A stretch of 38,985 nt of DNA, taken from a virus. How positions within the stretch are numbered: position 1 is the first letter of the stretch; the number at the start of each line of letters is the position of its first letter. The translations under genes and the position numbers were made by a program. Below are positions 1 through 38,985 of the stretch, in pieces. Under the pieces are notes generated by a model that worked only from the letters and a program-made list of their open reading frames with translations, was not told the DNA's origin and did not search any database. The stretch lies in IMG/VR virus record IMGVR_UViG_3300037502_000692, positions 1 to 38,985 of that record; one strand, 5' to 3'.

Positions 1-202
1 TAATCAGAAGAAGACTGACAGGATTATGTGGAGTTTACAGGGAAACTTTGAACACTCCCGCATTATCCTTAACGCTGATGAAGACTGGTCTGAGTTTGTT
101 GACCAGTATTTGATGTTCCCGTCAACTCAGGTTCACGATGACTTGATTGATGCTCTTTCCTATGTTGACCAGCTTGCTAAAACAATCAACATGGAAGAGT
201 TT
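1..202. repeat. Left copy of the imperfect terminal overlap
   Basis: These 202 bases match 38784-38985 except at positions 34, 35, 37, 40, 73, 74 and 75. All lie inside the terL reading frame. The first four changes are synonymous and the last cluster changes one Ala to Ser. The simplest reading is that both ends of a circular or circularly permuted genome were assembled from slightly different population members. A packaged direct terminal repeat would normally be identical in both copies. Confidence 0.9.
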
Positions 203-28344: not shown

Positions 28345-28524
28345 CTAGTGGGCGGTTTGTGACTGCAACATCTGCATGGTAATGGATCTTGCAGCCTCTG
28401 TCAAGAGAAACAAAGCATAAAGCGGATCACCCTGCAACTCTTCTGACATTCCGATGTTAAGGTTATCATCTGTGTCTTCCCAGATAAAAATACCTTGTTC
28501 AAATACTTCTGGATCAATCTTCAA
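28345..28524 (-). CDS. Small acidic protein (TTG start), downstream of DNA polymerase
   Basis: A 59-residue protein (MKIDPEVFEQGIFIWEDTDD at the start, ending MQMLQSQTAH). TTG at 28524 overlaps the polymerase stop (ATTGA), with AAGGA about seven bases upstream, so translation is coupled. Acidic N-terminal and helical C-terminal parts; function unknown. The SSB promoter lies inside its coding sequence. Confidence 0.72.
   Translation of the reverse strand: MKIDPEVFEQGIFIWEDTDDNLNIGMSEELQGDPLYALFLLTEAARSITMQMLQSQTAH
28376..28404 (-). promoter_or_regulatory. Sigma70-type promoter for the SSB gene (inside a coding region)
   Basis: On the minus strand TTGACA (28399-28404) is followed after a 17-base spacer by TACCAT (28376-28381). 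It lies in the 59-residue gene and about 70 bases upstream of the SSB ATG. A separate promoter would give the highly needed ssDNA-binding protein extra transcription. Confidence 0.65.
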
Positions 28525-30179
28525 TGCGTTTCCTTCCAGTTAAATCCTACACGATACTCGCCTGTCAAGGGGCAGCGCATGTTTAATACCTTGCCTGCTT
28601 CCTCGATCGCCTCCACGCCCATCTTACCAACCCTATCAGCGTCCTTCTCAATAACTTCAATCTGCCATTCGTCGTGTACATTCGCTACGAAGTGTGCGTC
28701 TATTTTGTGAGTCTTGATCTTCTTATTCAGAATGACCAAGGCTTGCTTCATTACAATCGCACCAGCACCCTGCAGTAGCGTGTTGAGTGCAGCGTGTGCG
28801 GAACGAATGAAAAGTTGCCTGCCGTCAAGACCGTTGAGGTATCCTTTTTCGCCCAGCCTTTCAATCTTTGCTCTAAGTGTTTTGAGCGATGGTGTGTTAT
28901 CAAGAAAGGAATCAATGAGCCGTTGGCCTTCTTTTGCACCCCCACCCACAATACTCCCGATTTTAGATGGCCCTGCTCCGTAGAGAAATGCGTAAATGAA
29001 TGTCTTCGCTTGCGGCCTAGTTTGAAGCCCTGCGGCATTTTGGTTTTTGGTATGAATGTCGCCTTCACAGACTTCTCGAACATATTCTTGATCCTTCATG
29101 TAGTGTGCAAGCATACGCAATTCTAAACCACTAGCGTCAATACCAACTAATTTGTAACCTTTCTCAACCATCCACAGTTCACGGCACTCAGCACCATAGG
29201 GACTGCTACATGATGGAACCTGCGCCATGTTAGGACTGCTGTGAGTCATTCGTCCTGTGACTGCGCCGTTGGTGATGACCTTACCGTGGACACGCCCATC
29301 TTCTCGTACAGCTTCAAGCCATGATTCAACCTGAGCCACCCTTTTCTGAAGCAGCAAGTACTCGGCAATAAGTTGAGCCTCAGCAATAGGGACATTAGCG
29401 AGGACTGTTTCATCAACTATTGCTTGGCCTTTCTCTGTAAATTTCTCTGGCTTCCAGCCTTTCTCTTGGAGGCGTTTGGAAATCTGCTGCCGACTGCTGG
29501 GGTTGAAGACTTCGATTCTGTCTTTGAGGGGCTTTCCTGTTTTTTCGCTGACTCTGGTGTGGACGATTGGCTCGAAGACGGATTGAAGTTGTTGCTCGAT
29601 TCCGGCGGCTTTGTCCCTGAGTAGTGCCACAAACTCCATAGCCTTAGGCACATTGAGTTTAAAGCCTCTTCGCTCTTGCTTTGCAATGATTGCAGCAACT
29701 TCATGCTCCAAGTCCACTGATTGCTCAGAGAATCCAAGAATTCTTTTCTCATTTTCGAGTGCATGGTATACCTCTTCAAGTAAGTTCACATCCTGAATAC
29801 AATAGTCAATCATCTCCTGCGTTAGACCGCCGTCGAAGTCCTGAAAGTCTATCTTGTGATTCTTCAATCTTAGTCCGAAAGCGGCTAGGCTGTGACCGCC
29901 TTCTCGGTTTGGGTTCAGTAGTCTCGACATCAGTAGGGTGTCTTTGCACTGGCTCAAACGAATCTTCGTATTCCATAGCCGATTCAAGATCGCTGCATCG
30001 AACGAAATGAGATTGTGTCCAACGATTGTGTCGCTGTCCTTTAAATACTCGTTCAACTTTCTTGCTTCCGTCCATACCTTTACTTCTCCGTCAGCCTTAG
30101 TAACACAACACCATATCCTATCATGTTGGGTATTCGTCTCTATGTCAAGAAACACCAATCTGTTGCCAGCCACTGTCAT
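28521..30179 (-). CDS. Family A DNA polymerase, T7-like
   Basis: A 552-residue replicative polymerase. Exonuclease domain: FLDIET (Asp12, Glu14), NLISFD (Asp61) and YCIQD (Tyr126, Asp130). Polymerase domain: TGRMTHSSPNMAQVPS (308-323), motif A DASGLELRMLAHY (Asp348), motif B RPQAKTFIYAFLYGAG (Arg388, Lys392, Tyr396) and motif C VHDEW (His502, Asp503, Glu504). It aligns well with T7 gp5 but is about 150 residues shorter, and the thioredoxin-binding loop between residues about 205-225 is missing. Tyr396 is the E. coli 762 position. Confidence 0.95.
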   Translation of the reverse strand: MTVAGNRLVFLDIETNTQHDRIWCCVTKADGEVKVWTEARKLNEYLKDSDTIVGHNLISFDAAILNRLWNTKIRLSQCKDTLLMSRLLNPNREGGHSLAAFGLRLKNHKIDFQDFDGGLTQEMIDYCIQDVNLLEEVYHALENEKRILGFSEQSVDLEHEVAAIIAKQERRGFKLNVPKAMEFVALLRDKAAGIEQQLQSVFEPIVHTRVSEKTGKPLKDRIEVFNPSSRQQISKRLQEKGWKPEKFTEKGQAIVDETVLANVPIAEAQLIAEYLLLQKRVAQVESWLEAVREDGRVHGKVITNGAVTGRMTHSSPNMAQVPSCSSPYGAECRELWMVEKGYKLVGIDASGLELRMLAHYMKDQEYVREVCEGDIHTKNQNAAGLQTRPQAKTFIYAFLYGAGPSKIGSIVGGGAKEGQRLIDSFLDNTPSLKTLRAKIERLGEKGYLNGLDGRQLFIRSAHAALNTLLQGAGAIVMKQALVILNKKIKTHKIDAHFVANVHDEWQIEVIEKDADRVGKMGVEAIEEAGKVLNMRCPLTGEYRVGFNWKETH

Positions 30180-31140: not shown

Positions 31141-31415
31141 TCTACATCCTCCTTCAACTTACCTGCTTCAATCTGCTCTCGCAGTGCTATCGCTTCAGGG
31201 TTTTGGCAATACTGGTCAAGTTCAAACTCACGACAGAAAGTATCCCATAGCTTCCAATGGCGTAACTCTGACATCTGCCACAGAGCCATCAGCAGGTTGT
31301 CAACCTCATCATGCGACATGAATGGCCCATCACAGTGCCGCTCAAACGCAGCTTTAAGATCTGCTGTCATGTCAGCATCCAAGATTGCCTGCTCAATATT
31401 AAATCTATTAGTCAT
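31137..31415 (-). CDS. Hypothetical acidic protein
   Basis: A 92-residue acidic helical protein (NRFNIEQAILDADMTADLKA, WQMSELRHWKLWDTFCREFE, ending GKLKEDVE). It overlaps both neighbours by four bases (ATGA-type coupling). No motif is recognised. The composition suggests a soluble protein of about 11 kDa. Confidence 0.65.
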   Translation of the reverse strand: MTNRFNIEQAILDADMTADLKAAFERHCDGPFMSHDEVDNLLMALWQMSELRHWKLWDTFCREFELDQYCQNPEAIALREQIEAGKLKEDVE

Positions 31416-31651
31416 TTTGCTTTCCTTATCTTGTTGAATGGATCATTCCAGAAACAACTCTCAGGAATCACAAACTCTTCCTTGACTAGTTCATCAGGGT
31501 AGCAATAAGTCTGATAGAACCGACCATTAAGTTTAACTTTATTGGCCTTCGCAAACAACCCTTTCTTAACACCTTTGATGACGATATTCCAAGCAGTGCC
31601 TTCGGGAATGTCCATATCCCTAGCATACTGCCGCACTGTAAAGCTGTTCAT
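31412..31651 (-). CDS. Small protein with possible winged-helix fold
   Basis: A 79-residue protein. The ATG at 31651 is preferred because AAAGG sits six bases upstream; an in-frame ATG at 31675 would place that site inside the gene. SFTVRQYARDMDIPEGTAWN followed by VIKGVKKGLFAKAN resembles a helix-turn-helix followed by a wing, hinting at DNA binding. That reading is weak. Confidence 0.55.
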   Translation of the reverse strand: MNSFTVRQYARDMDIPEGTAWNIVIKGVKKGLFAKANKVKLNGRFYQTYCYPDELVKEEFVIPESCFWNDPFNKIRKAK

Positions 31652-31653
31652 GT

Positions 31654-31803
31654 TTAACCTTTCCAAGCCAGCCAAGCCAGCCCAATGTTAGAGACAGAGT
31701 AACCGAACCAGACAATGAACATAGCCCAGTTACCCCGCATTGCTTCCATCACGCCAACACTGGCGTAAATGACCATGACTACCAGTATCAGCCACCAAGC
31801 CAT
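31654..31803 (-). CDS. Small two-segment membrane protein
   Basis: A 49-residue very hydrophobic protein (MAWWLILVVMVIYASVGVME, then WAMFIVWFGYSVSNIGLAWL) with two probable transmembrane helices separated by a short basic turn. It lies between two short genes with tight spacing. A role at the host membrane, for example superinfection exclusion or takeover, is possible but unproven. Confidence 0.62.
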   Translation of the reverse strand: MAWWLILVVMVIYASVGVMEAMRGNWAMFIVWFGYSVSNIGLAWLAWKG

Positions 31804-32093: not shown

Positions 32094-33692
32094 CTATAAA
32101 GTGTCAATAACTTCGGTCATTCTTCCTGTGACACGGTCATATAAAACCGCACCAGCAGGGCCAGTCTCGCCGTTATAGCGGGATTTGATAACCCTAATCC
32201 GTGTCGTATTGCGTTCAATAGGATCATCTGACTGTGCATGACGCTCTAATCCTAGCACCATGTCTGCCAACTGTCCAATACTTCCTGAACCCCTCAGTTG
32301 AGCCAAGGAAGTAGCCGCACCTTCCTCATGGCCTTTGTTGCCATCTGGCCTGCGGAGATGCGACACCGCAAACAGAGTGATACCAGTCTCTTGAACCAGC
32401 ATCCGCAACTTGGTCATGATCTCATCAATGGCTTTGCGTTCATCACCATGCGACTGGTCAGAGATGACAATAGAGATATGGTCTAGGAAAACATAACGAC
32501 ACTCTAAACCCTTCGCCATGTAACGCACCCTAGACACAATATTGTCAATTGAATTAGACCCAAAGCTGTCATAGAGATAAAGCCTGTCAGACCCTAGTGT
32601 CATGTCATAGGCTTTTTGTTTCTCTGCATCGGTAGCTTCTGTCTCTGCTAGGTGCAATGGCTTGTTGATAGCCAGCGACATGATAGACAAGCCTGTTTTC
32701 CTGACTGATTCCTCCAAGAACATCAGGCCAATATTGTCGCTAGTGCTGGTCAGAAGTGTCCAGACGCATTCACGAAGAAACTGTGATTTGCCAAGGCCGC
32801 TACCAGCCGTTACCACCACCATTTCCTGTGACCGAATACCACCTGTCAAGTCATTAAGTGATGCAAACGGATAGAATGCCGATGCTTTCTCTAACGGAGC
32901 CATCACCTGATCATAGAGTGACGATCCTGTGATAATGCCATCGGGAATGTACTGTTCTGAAGCCCACCATAGCCTGACAAAGTCTGTAGACTTGTTGACG
33001 CTGGAATAATCGCATGCGTCCTTGAATCCTTCAGCATGTTTGAAAATCTTTACTTTAGAACCGAAGATTTCAGCGACTGCATTAGCGGCCTTTTGACCGG
33101 GTTCATCTGCATCAAAACATAGGACAATGCTATCGAACCTGTCTAACCACTCATACGCCTTCTGGCAGTCCTTTGCCGCACCACTAGCACCATTCTTAAC
33201 GCTGACGCATGGATACTTTGAACCTAGCATTTGAAAGCCTGCTAATGCGTCTAGTTCACCTTCAAACACTGTTACCGCCTTACCACCAGCATTGAATCGA
33301 TCCATTCCAAACAAGGGTTGTTCTGACTTTGTGCGCCAATAGAATTCCTTGTCTTCAACCTTTCTGACTTTGATGCCAGAACCATAAGGGTAGAAGTGTT
33401 CGTCATCGGATTGGGTCACATTGTAGAATTTGCAGGTTTCCTTGACAATGCCACGATCAGGAATGCTCAGCAAGGCCCCTAATGGCGTCACTACGGCTTT
33501 GTTTACCTGTTCCCTAGGGTCTGGTATGTCTAAGCCAACAAAAGCCCCTTCTAAGCCGTTCTGAGCGGTTTTGTCAAACTCATTGCAGACGAAGCAATAG
33601 CCATGACCATCATCGTAGACCGCATAGCCATCCGAAGAGGGACAATGTGGACAGGCAGCATGACGCAATAATTTACTTTCTGTTTTCAGCAT
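32094..33692 (-). CDS. Primase-helicase, T7 gp4-like
   Basis: A 532-residue bifunctional protein. N-terminal zinc knuckles: CPHC (14-17) and CFVC (33-36). TOPRIM primase domain about 140-220 with FEGELDALAG (Glu144) and LCFDADEPGQ (191-200). RecA-like helicase: Walker A GSGLGKS (297-303), Walker B VFLDHISIV (401-409) and SHLRR (444-448). It synthesises primers and unwinds DNA for the family A polymerase. AAAGG lies about seven bases before the ATG. The start overlaps the upstream gene by 20 bases. Confidence 0.95.
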   Translation of the reverse strand: MLKTESKLLRHAACPHCPSSDGYAVYDDGHGYCFVCNEFDKTAQNGLEGAFVGLDIPDPREQVNKAVVTPLGALLSIPDRGIVKETCKFYNVTQSDDEHFYPYGSGIKVRKVEDKEFYWRTKSEQPLFGMDRFNAGGKAVTVFEGELDALAGFQMLGSKYPCVSVKNGASGAAKDCQKAYEWLDRFDSIVLCFDADEPGQKAANAVAEIFGSKVKIFKHAEGFKDACDYSSVNKSTDFVRLWWASEQYIPDGIITGSSLYDQVMAPLEKASAFYPFASLNDLTGGIRSQEMVVVTAGSGLGKSQFLRECVWTLLTSTSDNIGLMFLEESVRKTGLSIMSLAINKPLHLAETEATDAEKQKAYDMTLGSDRLYLYDSFGSNSIDNIVSRVRYMAKGLECRYVFLDHISIVISDQSHGDERKAIDEIMTKLRMLVQETGITLFAVSHLRRPDGNKGHEEGAATSLAQLRGSGSIGQLADMVLGLERHAQSDDPIERNTTRIRVIKSRYNGETGPAGAVLYDRVTGRMTEVIDTL

Positions 33693-33931: not shown

Positions 33932-34051
33932 TTAATAATAAAGATTAAATGCTAATAGTGCTATAAATACAATACTACTATATAGTAATAATATATTAGC
34001 AAGAACTGTGCCAACTGTCTCCACTTCATCAGAGTGTTCGGAATTGATCAT
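33932..34051 (-). CDS. Small single-span membrane protein
   Basis: A 39-residue protein (MINSEHSDEVETVGTVLANI at the start, then a hydrophobic LLLYSSIVFIALLAFNLYY tail). One transmembrane helix with an acidic N-terminus. ATG 34051 lies two bases from the methyltransferase stop, and GGGG sits six bases upstream. The rest of the 171-base interval down to 33882 is AT-rich, with repeated TATATAG motifs. Confidence 0.6.
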   Translation of the reverse strand: MINSEHSDEVETVGTVLANILLLYSSIVFIALLAFNLYY

Positions 34052-34052
34052 T

Positions 34053-34646
34053 TTAACCCCATTGATCTGCCATTGCATCAGCTATTCCCTGGAATGTTTT
34101 GTTTCTCATTCTTTCTCTATCTTTTGGAGGCAATACTGAAGAATCATAAAACCATTTACTCATCTTCTTTCCACTTTTAGAAACCCATACTTCCCCCTTT
34201 GAAACTAGATTAGTAGGTTTTAATACAGGTAAACCTTTCAACCAAAGACAGGTTGCTTTTGTGGTTTCATGCCCATAATGCCAAGGTTGAATGATCTGAT
34301 CCGGTTTCCTATAAATGCTTGACATTATACCTACAGGGTTTTCAATCGCATATTTAGGAATGTTGCTATTTATCAAAGCCATGAAAAAATCAATGCCTTG
34401 TTGCTGCCTGCCATCAGCCCTTTTCTTAGCAAAGTGCCTAGCACCGCTTACAGCAAGATGAGTGCATGGCGGATGAGCTATCATTAAATCCCATCCATCA
34501 TTGATGATGTCAAAAACATCGCCTTGATAATGAGGGCCTGGTTTTTCTGTTGGCTCTAAATCACAAGACATTGCATCATGCCCTCTAGCGATGAAAGCAT
34601 CTCTAACAGTACCGCTAAATTCACACGCAATCAGTACTTTCATCAT
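34053..34646 (-). CDS. DNA methyltransferase-like protein (C5-cytosine type)
   Basis: A 197-residue protein. HPPCTHL (58-64, Pro-Cys catalytic motif) and AIENPVG (100-106) are the motif IV and VI cores of C5-cytosine methyltransferases, and CEFSGTVRDAF (8-18) is a degenerate AdoMet-binding motif I. The WHYGHETTKATCLWLKGLPV segment (about 122-141) is characteristic of this short phage family. It is too short to have a normal target-recognition domain. No companion restriction enzyme is present, so it probably protects phage DNA or has another role. Confidence 0.72.
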   Translation of the reverse strand: MMKVLIACEFSGTVRDAFIARGHDAMSCDLEPTEKPGPHYQGDVFDIINDGWDLMIAHPPCTHLAVSGARHFAKKRADGRQQQGIDFFMALINSNIPKYAIENPVGIMSSIYRKPDQIIQPWHYGHETTKATCLWLKGLPVLKPTNLVSKGEVWVSKSGKKMSKWFYDSSVLPPKDRERMRNKTFQGIADAMADQWG

Positions 34647-34891
34647 CTATCGCTCCATGGAATGTCGTCTTCGATGTCGTCAAAGGGATCATTGTAGAAT
34701 TTAATGTCCAATTGATCGACAATCTGATCATCGTCATCCTCAGTCATTAGTCTAGGATTGCCGAAGGCCAACACATCGTCTTTAATACCAGCAAAACATC
34801 GTTGACATAGGGTCAGATACTCCCCAGTTACCAATGACCGCCTAGATGACTCGAAGTCTGTCAATATCTCATCACAGCTTTTACATTTCAT
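34643..34891 (-). CDS. Small zinc-binding acidic protein
   Basis: An 82-residue protein with two CxxC knuckles (MKCKSC at the start and CQRC near residue 29) that could bind zinc, followed by a very acidic tail (MTEDDDDQIVDQLD, ending DDIEDDIPWSDR). Overlaps by four bases with both neighbours. Acidic zinc proteins of this kind can be inhibitors of host DNA-binding proteins. That is inference. Confidence 0.65.
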   Translation of the reverse strand: MKCKSCDEILTDFESSRRSLVTGEYLTLCQRCFAGIKDDVLAFGNPRLMTEDDDDQIVDQLDIKFYNDPFDDIEDDIPWSDR

Positions 34892-36504: not shown

Positions 36505-36521
36505 TCTTAAGTCCTTTCTTA

Positions 36522-36531
36522 GGATACTGCG
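36522..36531 (-). promoter_or_regulatory. Leader motif CGCAGTATCC (third copy)
   Basis: On the minus strand CGCAGTATCC is followed by TAAGAAAGGA, then the ATG at 36504. The block matches the SSB leader over about 19 of 21 aligned bases with one gap. It lies about 25 bases after the predicted -10 box of the leftward promoter, so it would be inside the transcript. Confidence 0.65.
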
Positions 36532-36555
36532 TTGATGATGTACTACTATGACTAC

Positions 36556-36585
36556 ATATTACGGTTTTAGGTTTCGCTATGTCAA
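36556..36585 (-). promoter_or_regulatory. Leftward sigma70-type promoter of the early operon
   Basis: On the minus strand a perfect TTGACA (36580-36585) is separated by 18 bases from TAATAT (36556-36561). The transcript would start near 36549, about 45 bases upstream of the first leftward ATG, and would serve the whole 36504-20886 block. The dyad array lies immediately upstream, in a position where bound proteins could activate or repress it. Confidence 0.75.
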
Positions 36586-36642
36586 CATCAAAACATTAGG
36601 GAAAACCCTTATCTTGACAAATCTACTCAGGTATTGTCATTG

Positions 36643-36827
36643 TGTGGTAAAAATACAACACTATCCAACATTGGCTGAGTGTTGCATAAATACAACACTG
36701 CACTATAGTGGTGCATTGTGGTACAGATACAACATTGCACTATAGTGGTGCGTTTATTGCATAGCACAATGATGCACTATAGTGGTGCAACATCGCCCCT
36801 CACTGCACTGTGGTATTAATACAACAC
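36643..36827. repeat. Alternating array of two dyad motifs, 37-bp period
   Basis: Motif A, TGTGGTA-N3-ATACAACAC or variants, is a near-perfect 19-base dyad found at 36643-36661, 36680-36698, 36717-36735 and 36809-36827, with a weak copy at 36754-36772. Motif B, TGCACTATAGTGGTGCA, is a palindrome with core CACTATAGTG at 36699-36715, 36736-36752 (last base changed) and 36773-36789. Motif B copies are exactly 37 bases apart, as are the first three motif A copies. This looks like an iteron or operator array bound by one or two regulators. Confidence 0.85.
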
Positions 36828-36831
36828 TATG

Positions 36832-36915
36832 ATGTAAGTCAGCACTAACTAACGATCCTGGCAATGTAAGCACTGACTAACTTGTCAGCTTTGACCATGT
36901 AAGTAAGCGCTAACA
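36832..36915 (+). repeat. Second direct repeat array, ATGTAAG-type
   Basis: Three degenerate copies of ATGTAAGTNAGCRCTAAC occur at 36832-36853, 36864-36881 and 36897-36915, with starts 32 and 33 bases apart, close to three helical turns. A shorter inverted copy (TGTAAGTCA read on the minus strand) lies at 36966-36974, overlapping a TTGACT box. Likely additional protein-binding sites. Confidence 0.65.
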
Positions 36916-37128
36916 TACCGGGGGTGGGGTCATGGTTAATTGTGTTAATTTTGATGAACCAACATTGACTTACAAAAAAGAAAAAATAGACTATGCTAGA
37001 TCTAGTACAAGTCTTTGATAAACAATACTAAATCTAGTACTGAGCAAGACTAAGCAAACTAGACGATAACGAACACTGCGAAGACCGTCATTGAACTGTG
37101 CAATGCGAAGGCCTATGAAAGAAACTTC

Positions 37129-37157
37129 TTGACTTTTTAACAAAAATATGCTAGAAT
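37129..37157 (+). promoter_or_regulatory. Rightward sigma70-type promoter for the terminase/late block
   Basis: TTGACT (37129-37134), a 17-base spacer and TAGAAT (37152-37157) with an extended TG (37149-37150) give a strong host-type promoter. The transcript would start near 37164, leaving a long leader (about 145 bases) before the small-terminase ATG. Related -10-like text (TATGCTAGA) occurs near 36992. Confidence 0.75.
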
Positions 37158-37204
37158 ATTCCTTAATATAGGACTTCGTAAGACGACGAACATTAAGATT
37201 AAGA

Positions 37205-37292
37205 TTTAGAAAAAAAACTCTTTCTAAAGCGATCTAACAGCGTAACGACGAAGAACAATATTGTAAGCAAAGTAGCCTTTCTTTTTAGAAAG
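37205..37292 (+). promoter_or_regulatory. Two perfect leader hairpins before the small terminase
   Basis: TTTAGAAA (37205-37212) pairs with TTTCTAAA (37221-37228), and CTTTCT (37277-37282) pairs with AGAAAG (37287-37292) across a TTTT loop. The second hairpin ends 15 bases before the start, next to the weak ribosome binding site AGAGAA. Could tune translation or protect the mRNA end. Confidence 0.45.
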
Positions 37293-37307
37293 AGAACTAA
37301 ATAAAAA

Positions 37308-37787
37308 ATGAACACTAAAGATGATGTCTCTTTAAATGAGACTGTCTCCGAGGTCTCTAAGGTTTCGGAGCCTGTCTTAACAGAACAGCCTGTCTTAAAA
37401 CCGTTAGGCGCTAACCGACGAAACACTCGTGGTGGTCGGCCTAAGAAGTCTGAGATAGAGAAGCGTCTTAGAAAAGATCCTACCAGAGGTCGTGGTCGTC
37501 CTCCCGGTGAGGCGCAGAAGATTAAAGAGTTAATGGCAAGGATGCTGTTAACTAACGGTGAGAATGTTCTTCAGAAGACAATTAACATTGCTCTTGATGA
37601 CAACCACCAGCATCAGATGGCAGCGATAAAGTTGTTGATGGATAGAGCGTTACCGACTTCGTTCTTTGAGAATAAAGATTCCAATGCTGGCTCAGGGTCA
37701 GGGATTGTTATTAACATCTCTGGTCTTACACCAAAGATAGAGTCTTCAAATGATGTTATAGATGTAGAGGTTGACAGTGGAACTTAA
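37308..37787 (+). CDS. terS: Terminase small subunit (probable)
   Basis: A 159-residue protein immediately before terL. A basic middle contains two AT-hook-like cores, GGRPKK (42-47) and RGRGRPPG (60-67), which could bind the minor groove of AT-rich packaging or origin DNA. The region from about 68 on is helical (QKIKELMARMLLTNGENVLQ). It would recognise the packaging site and present DNA to the large subunit. Identification rests on position and DNA-binding features. It overlaps terL by 11 bases. Confidence 0.75.
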   Translation: MNTKDDVSLNETVSEVSKVSEPVLTEQPVLKPLGANRRNTRGGRPKKSEIEKRLRKDPTRGRGRPPGEAQKIKELMARMLLTNGENVLQKTINIALDDNHQHQMAAIKLLMDRALPTSFFENKDSNAGSGSGIVINISGLTPKIESSNDVIDVEVDSGT

Positions 37788-38985
37788 TTGGTCGCTTCTA
37801 CCTTGGCAGTTAGAGGTATGGCAGGACAGCCACAGGTTTAAGGTTATTGCTGCTGGTCGTCGATGTGGTAAGAGCAACCTAGCCATTAAGATGCTTCTAG
37901 CAAAGGCGCTAGAGGCTCCTGAAGGCTCTGCAGTGGTGTATGTAGCACCGACGCTAGGTCAGGCTAGGCAGATTGCTTGGGATGCCTTGTTAGACCAAGG
38001 TAGGCCAGTGATAAAGCAAGCGCATGTGAACAACATGGACATTACGCTTGTAACTGGTAGGAAGATTCATATTAGGTCTGCAGAGAACCCTGATGCTCTG
38101 CGAGGATTGAAGTTGTATTTCTGTGTGATCGATGAAGCAGCGTTCGTTAAGGAAGATGTATTTACAAAGATTCTTAGACCTGCTTTGGCAGACTTAAAAG
38201 GTGATGCTGTTCTTATATCAACCCCTGATGGTCGCAACTGGTTTTATGACGCATTCAAAACCGGTGAGTCGGATAGTAAAGATTGGAAGTCTTGGCATCT
38301 GACTACCAAAGACAATCCCACGATTGATCCTGAAGAGATACAAGCAGCAAAGGAAACACTAAGTAGCTTTCACTTTAACCAAGAGTTTATGGCTTCCTTT
38401 ACCAACAGCGGTAGCGGAATGTTTAAAGAAGAATGGTTAAAGTATGGCAGTGAACCTAAGGAAGGTTCATGGTATATAGCGATTGACTTGGCTGGGTTTA
38501 AGGATGTAGCCAATGCCAGCACCGCTGCACAGAAGCGCCTAGACCAGAGTGCTATTGCAGTAGTGAAGGCCACTGATGATGGTAAATGGTTTGTAGAGAA
38601 GATTGAGCATGGTCGTTGGGATATCGATGAAACAGCCATGCGTATTCTTAAGAATGTAGAAGAATACAAACCGATGGCGGTAGGGATTGAGAAGGGTATG
38701 GCAAGGCAGGCAGTATTGGGGCCGCTACAATCCTTGATGAGAAGGTATAACAATTACTTTCACATTGAAGAATTAACACACGGTAATCAGAAGAAGACTG
38801 ACAGGATTATGTGGAGCCTTCAAGGAAACTTTGAACACTCCCGCATTATCCTTAATAGTGATGAAGACTGGTCTGAGTTTGTTGACCAGTATTTGATGTT
38901 CCCGTCAACTCAGGTTCACGATGACTTGATTGATGCTCTTTCCTATGTTGACCAGCTTGCTAAAACAATCAACATGGAAGAGTTT
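37777..38985 (+). CDS. terL: Terminase large subunit (continues at base 2)
   Basis: 403 residues to the window end; the last 14 are at the left end. GTG 37777 overlaps the small-terminase stop. ATPase: Walker A AAGRRCGKS (25-33), Walker B YFCVIDEAA (114-122) and STPDGRNW (148-155). Nuclease: IDLAG (236-240), GIEKG (303-307) and HDDLIDALSY (381-390), giving the acidic residues of the RNase H-like metal site. It powers headful DNA packaging and cuts concatemers. The catalytic core is complete. Confidence 0.94.
   Translation, partial: MELNWSLLPWQLEVWQDSHRFKVIAAGRRCGKSNLAIKMLLAKALEAPEGSAVVYVAPTLGQARQIAWDALLDQGRPVIKQAHVNNMDITLVTGRKIHIRSAENPDALRGLKLYFCVIDEAAFVKEDVFTKILRPALADLKGDAVLISTPDGRNWFYDAFKTGESDSKDWKSWHLTTKDNPTIDPEEIQAAKETLSSFHFNQEFMASFTNSGSGMFKEEWLKYGSEPKEGSWYIAIDLAGFKDVANASTAAQKRLDQSAIAVVKATDDGKWFVEKIEHGRWDIDETAMRILKNVEEYKPMAVGIEKGMARQAVLGPLQSLMRRYNNYFHIEELTHGNQKKTDRIMWSLQGNFEHSRIILNSDEDWSEFVDQYLMFPSTQVHDDLIDALSYVDQLAKTINMEEF
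38784..38985. repeat. Right copy of the imperfect terminal overlap
   Basis: Matches bases 1-202 with seven substitutions and no gap. The reading frame is preserved through the overlap, so joining at either copy restores a complete terL. The closed genome would be 38,783 bp. Confidence 0.9.

Follow-up and report, generated by a model that had tools for sequence, protein, structure and literature searches.

A predicted array of host NtrC boxes as a putative remote sigma-54 enhancer of phage replication genes

The dyad array at positions 36643–36827 of the window (the whole 38,985-base stretch of viral DNA analysed here) holds three predicted binding sites for the host nitrogen-starvation regulator NtrC, interleaved with copies of a second palindrome. 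Judging from the sequence, we consider it probable, at roughly three chances in four, that the array acts as a remote enhancer through which host NtrC and sigma-54 would drive the phage replication genes, coupling replication to the nitrogen status of the host; this reading assumes that the host possesses NtrC and RpoN. The array sits in the sole long divergent gap of the window (36505–37307), which separates leftward replication genes from rightward terminase and structural genes.

The palindrome termed motif B, part of an array for which the initial annotation knew no described phage counterpart, has the textbook form of an NtrC box. Its three copies, to which no strand is assigned, lie at 36699–36715 (TGCACTATAGTGGTGCA), 36736–36752 (TGCACTATAGTGGTGCG) and 36773–36789 (TGCACTATAGTGGTGCA) and match the 17-bp NtrC consensus TGCACCAnnnTGGTGCA (PMC8743547; PMC4987338) at 13, 12 and 13 of 14 positions, respectively. 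Cooperative binding by NtrC needs at least two boxes, and the window has three, of which the third is the best preserved in sequence and position in an alignment with four members of its clade (L001, L084, L092 and L234). Motif A is an 18-bp palindrome (consensus TGTKGTATWWATACMACA), likewise unstranded, with copies at 36643–36660 (TGTGGTAAAAATACAACA), 36680–36697 (TGTTGCATAAATACAACA), 36717–36734 (TGTGGTACAGATACAACA) and 36809–36826 (TGTGGTATTAATACAACA), and it abuts the NtrC box with a single base between them. All six start coordinates originally given for the two motifs are exact, as are the 37-bp steps inside each set; however, the order is not A-B-A-B-A′-B but A-A-B-A-B-(relic)-B-A, as no B follows the first A and what stands in register at 36754 is just a relic of A (TTATTGCATAGCACAATG). 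The fourth copy of motif A is a better match than the others and lies 92 bp past the third, off the 37-bp register.

With the score limits applied, the rest of the 38,985-base window contains no further copy of either motif. Dinucleotide shuffles of the window predict 0.18 NtrC-box matches of at least 12/14 and 0.10 motif A matches of at least 15/18, against the three and four observed, and the top 90-bp self-match of the array (70% at lag 37) exceeds the maximum of 50% reached in 200 shuffles. As a control, the same scan applied to E. coli glnA recovered the known promoter and both known boxes, which are spaced by 32 bp. Rfam and tRNA scans gave no hits, and no DNA similarity of the array region to isolated phages was found.

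Dozens of uncultivated relatives of the window phage also have NtrC-box arrays in this divergent region. We searched IMG/VR with two close copies of TGCAC-N7-GTGCA and left the seven inner bases free, which avoids circularity; in the arrays so found, the free bases are C/T-A on the left and T-G/A on the right, as in the NtrC box, with A7 and T11 present in 69 of 98 sites from relatives of the window phage (about 6 expected) and in 87 of 159 sites from non-relatives (10 expected). Relatives are encoded on 42 of the 116 stretches with tandem boxes and on 16 of the 26 with the exact 15-mer. TGCAC-N7-GTGCA is also the commonest palindromic dyad upstream of the large terminase gene (TerL), being present in 29 of 79 non-redundant regions, a sample partly drawn by motif searches and so partly enriched, while any shuffled dyad reaches at most 4–6; it and TGTTG-N8-CAACA (motif A) were both among the top four dyads found de novo in this set. 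The combination is found in at least one phage whose terminase is unrelated, L263, where three sigma-54 promoters (12–13/13) and three perfect NtrC boxes precede the terminase gene, and the recurrence of the same sites at the same place in unrelated phages indicates a shared host protein. Outside the window lineage, perfect NtrC boxes number two to seven in L263, L286 and L259, which have up to three sigma-54 promoters (12–13/13).

The predicted target is a sigma-54 promoter of the −24/−12 type (TTGGCACAGTTCTTGCT; 33998–34014, minus strand, start near 33986) that immediately precedes the primase-helicase operon and overlaps a putative 48-codon ORF (33932–34078). It matches YTGGCACG-N4-TTGCW at 12 of 13 positions, GG-N10-GC included, and is the only match at this level in a scan of the whole window (0.2 expected per shuffled window). 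The first large gene behind it encodes the primase-helicase (32094–33692, minus strand; phrog_239, 5.6e-170; Pfam DnaB_C and Toprim_2), with a family A DNA polymerase (28521–30179, minus strand) further along the same leftward block. The promoter is the best-kept stretch of its surroundings in relatives, where it is codirectional, and 49 non-redundant regions upstream of primase genes contain 25 codirectional sigma-54 promoters and one in the opposite direction (0.7 in shuffles). A coding explanation for the motif was ruled out: in a set of 41 promoter contexts, drawn in part by the sigma-54 pattern itself, 18 lie in no ORF of at least 30 codons and the rest are spread over all three frames, suggesting that the constraint acts on the DNA.

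Sigma-54 matches of at least 11/13 are also enriched in the divergent regions themselves (19 observed, 3.6 expected). L113, L127, L142, L200 and L300 have such a promoter inside the divergent region, facing the early genes, with NtrC-type sites about 100–170 bp upstream, which is the textbook NtrC/sigma-54 arrangement. The divergent region of the window clade contains no local sigma-54 promoter of at least 11/13. A 10/13 match within the array (36745) is unconserved and at chance level, and TTGGC-TGAGTGTTGCA at 36673, one base short of the sigma-54 spacing, may be a decayed promoter, given the full-length version in L234.

To relate the boxes to the distant promoter, we ran a promoter-only search that ignored NtrC and pooled its hits with the TerL loci, the core-pattern loci and the window; 20 phages in the pool carry the promoter with no less than 2.7 kb of DNA upstream of it. 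NtrC boxes lie 0.7–5 kb upstream of the promoter in 13 of these 20, the window counting as one of the 20, and nearby boxes in none; the control contigs, with 3 boxes per 757 kb, predict about 0.02 per phage, and any p-value would be optimistic as the phages counted are related and not independent. No boxes were found downstream of the promoter in the relatives examined. The close group of L005, L008, L227 and L235 retains the sigma-54 promoter and lacks a good NtrC box. Chance as the origin of the motifs was ruled out by the shuffles, the free inner positions, the promoter direction counts and the control-contig background. The three boxes of the window lie 2721, 2758 and 2795 bp from the predicted sigma-54 start. 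About 10-fold activation of a sigma-54 promoter was obtained in E. coli with the NtrC enhancer 2 kb away, and the effect declines with distance up to 11.7 kb (PMC5696343); a natural enhancer at 2.7 kb is thus physically plausible.

The sequence shows sites that are conserved and NtrC-specific, and a sigma-54 promoter that co-occurs with them; from this we infer the following sequence of events. In a cell short of nitrogen, phosphorylated host NtrC would bind the three boxes, and its oligomers would loop across about 2.7 kb to the promoter at 33998–34014 and open the host sigma-54 RNA polymerase waiting there, switching on the primase-helicase operon and with it phage DNA replication. A second dimeric regulator, probably also from the host, would occupy the motif A sites adjoining the NtrC boxes and either help or hinder NtrC.

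The initial annotation read the 37-bp period as about 3.5 helical turns, with successive sites on opposite faces of the helix. As a design rule this is not supported: neighbouring NtrC boxes in other phages (95 pairs) show spacing peaks at 21–23, 29–32, 40–42 and 49–50 bp, that is, at whole turns, as expected of cooperating dimers, and among the NtrC pairs compared a 37-bp spacing is found in the window only. Adjacent boxes of the window do not share a helical face, although the outer two are 74 bp (7 turns) apart; boxes on the same face are usual in NtrC enhancers but not obligatory. Related phages have the motifs at the same place but not at a strict 37-bp spacing. Motif A spacings are 37/57/19/65 in L001 and 37/48/37/65/36 in L084 and L092, with B spacings of 66 and 47, respectively; in L234, whose polymerase is 98% identical to that of the window phage, motif A is absent and there is a single NtrC box. 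The 37-bp A-A step does recur: it separates the first two A copies in four members of the clade and is also seen in a share of other A arrays, accounting for 14 of the A-A distances, about half of them from the window clade. Being unconserved as a rule and off the helical phase, the 37-bp period of the window looks like a local tandem duplication of a 37-bp unit with one A and one B.

Motif A appears to be an operator in many phages, and its reader is probably a host regulator. We found 86 non-redundant A arrays, many of them adjoining terminase genes, which are of more than one type. The arrays have no DNA-binding gene in common, although small proteins with no assigned function remain as possible readers. 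The single-base gap between A and B means that the motif A protein could compete or cooperate with NtrC. String searches of the literature matched no regulator to motif A. NrdR was considered and rejected, as its boxes are 16 bp long, paired 15–16 bp apart and located beside ribonucleotide reductase genes, whereas motif A is 18 bp. The earlier idea of a two-protein nucleoprotein array or master switch is borne out insofar as two interleaved dimer sites occupy a divergent control region; only one of the two proteins, host NtrC, can be named, and that by prediction.

Several other readings of the region deserve consideration. NtrC might act locally, with NtrC-P activating or repressing the leftward sigma-70-like early promoter (TTGACA-N18-TAATAT; 36585–36556, minus strand, predicted start near 36549) or another local promoter, and with a different activator serving the distant sigma-54 promoter. 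In L001, L084 and L092 the hexamers of this early promoter are preserved and its spacer has diverged. The boxes lie 158–232 bp upstream of the predicted early start, which is a usual distance for an enhancer, several relatives have local sigma-54 promoters in the divergent region, and NtrC is known to act on sigma-70 promoters in Rhodobacter capsulatus. It is also true that natural sigma-54 promoters do not usually have their nearest enhancer site as far off as 2.7 kb, and another activator could operate at this one. However, as noted above, the window clade lacks a local sigma-54 promoter, and a sigma-54 promoter requires an activator, for which no other shared dyad is present within 330 bp upstream of the distant one; we regard local action as doubtful, if a serious contender. 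Far harder to credit is a decoy that soaks up host NtrC while the phage DNA multiplies. Several strong boxes per genome, copied in replication, would suit such a role, but the helical phasing of the boxes and their linkage to sigma-54 promoters suit activation better.

A and B might also both be operators of phage-encoded regulators, as in an early/late switch, since multiple interleaved palindromes at a divergent promoter resemble phage operators and motif A is found mostly in this phage lineage (relatives of the window phage are encoded on 34 of the 119 stretches with motif A and on just 4 of the 87 with a scrambled motif; Fisher p = 7e-6). This is improbable, and the initial idea that small phage proteins bind the sites is not supported on the same evidence: no early window gene tracks motif A among relatives, L001 has five A sites and lacks the HTH-like gene at 31412, the A arrays share no DNA-binding gene and also stand beside another terminase type, NtrC-box arrays also precede an unrelated terminase, and the window has no sigma-54 activator gene. 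The suggestion that the region is an origin, with the array as an iteron or initiator site, fared unevenly. The same region in relatives is rich in perfect DnaA boxes (TTATCCACA; 38 in 79 regions, 1.7 expected), a conserved G-rich and then A-rich block follows the array, and the cumulative GC skew has its minimum at the divergent region. On the other hand, the window region has no DnaA box TTATCCACA, even with one mismatch, the GC skew also tracks gene direction, and an origin would not entail NtrC specificity or sigma-54 promoters. We therefore think it unlikely that the array itself is an origin site, though an origin may lie next to the proposed NtrC enhancer, in neighbouring parts of the region.

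The remote enhancer reading can be compared with known systems. Like the window, the E. coli glnAp2 enhancer has 17-bp boxes, more than one of them, and a −24/−12 promoter; its boxes, though, are about 100–150 bp from the promoter and are spaced as given above, in contrast to 37 bp apart and 2.7 kb off, and it controls glutamine synthetase, whereas the window promoter fronts phage genes. The use of host starvation regulators by phages is already known. T4-like cyanophage genomes have predicted sites for the host global nitrogen regulator NtcA (PMC3037559), a different regulator (GTA-N8-TAC) whose sites are scattered genome-wide and do not form a sigma-54 enhancer array. In cyanophage S-PM2d, host PhoB drives replication genes and binds at the DNA polymerase promoter in EMSA, and the same study cautions that predicted regulator sites in phages are not always bound (PMC10976474); there too the regulator is a host starvation regulator, but it responds to phosphate from promoter-proximal sites, with neither sigma-54 nor a long-range enhancer. 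The window shares the T7-type replication module (primase-helicase, family A polymerase and gp2.5-like SSB); in contrast, no phage RNA polymerase gene was recognised among the window genes examined, and the promoters found look like those of host sigma-70 and sigma-54. In a full-text literature search, with subscription journals mostly outside its coverage, we found neither NtrC/sigma-54 control of phage genes nor a long-range phage enhancer.

If the enhancer reading is correct, an abundant uncultivated phage group ties its DNA replication to the host nitrogen-starvation response via NtrC and sigma-54, which would be, as far as we found, the first NtrC case in a phage and a natural long-range phage enhancer. 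Infection should then depend on host glnG, rpoN and nitrogen supply, offering a handle on how nutrient limitation shapes its outcome; the phage could sense host hunger, and an odd element would be explained and would supply a search pattern for more. A broader proposal, which we advance tentatively and rate at somewhat under an even chance, is that the divergent region of this widespread group serves as a hub in which sites for host regulators are exchanged (for NtrC and the motif A protein and, in some members, Fur-like and DnaA boxes) and which senses host nutrition, with NtrC as a natural kilobase-range enhancer and sigma-54-driven replication licensed by nitrogen starvation. The window and L234 form a close pair that differs almost wholly in the array and not downstream of it, so that regulator sites seem to be swapped as a unit.

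Further features mark the divergent region. Left of the array, TTAGGGAAAACCCTTATCTTGACA (36608–36640) is conserved in relatives. Right of the array, a third repeated motif (TGTAAGTcAGCaCTAACTAAC; 36830–36920), a putative operator on sequence grounds, is kept in most relatives, and CACTAAC repeats resembling it are present in the unrelated phage L263. After these repeats comes a block (36919–36985) strongly conserved in close relatives, in which G-rich CCGGGGGTGGGG is followed by TTAATTTTGATGAACCAACATTGA and by an A-rich run; it is a possible origin core. Among TerL-upstream regions, AGGGT-N2-ACCCT is the second commonest dyad and lies near NtrC boxes in non-relatives too, DnaA-box clusters occur in L004, L007, L300, L321, L319 and L330, and Fur-box-like sites (15–16 of 19) occur in L097, L091, L104, L123 and L023 (5 observed, 0.9 expected).

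A Sphingobacteriales host, to which one relative-bearing contig was binned, was rejected, as that genome has no exact NtrC box and the assignment is probably a binning artefact; a search for the host via plasmid relatives gave distant hits only. Two further leftward genes may be of interest: an 82-aa zinc-ribbon-like protein with an acidic tail (CxxC...CxxC; 34643–34891, minus strand), present in most relatives that have a primase gene, is a candidate regulator or RNA-polymerase binder, and an 87-aa winged-helix-turn-helix-like protein with no family match (31412–31675, minus strand) occurs among relatives only in L084 and L092. The rightward block opens with a probable small terminase (37308–37787, plus strand), which precedes TerL and has homologs in relatives, and continues with the large terminase (37771–38985, plus strand) to the window end. 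The first and last 202 bases of the window (1–202 and 38784–38985) are copies of one another that differ at 7 positions, so the record probably represents a whole genome, circularly permuted and about 38.8 kb long, in which two variants have been joined.
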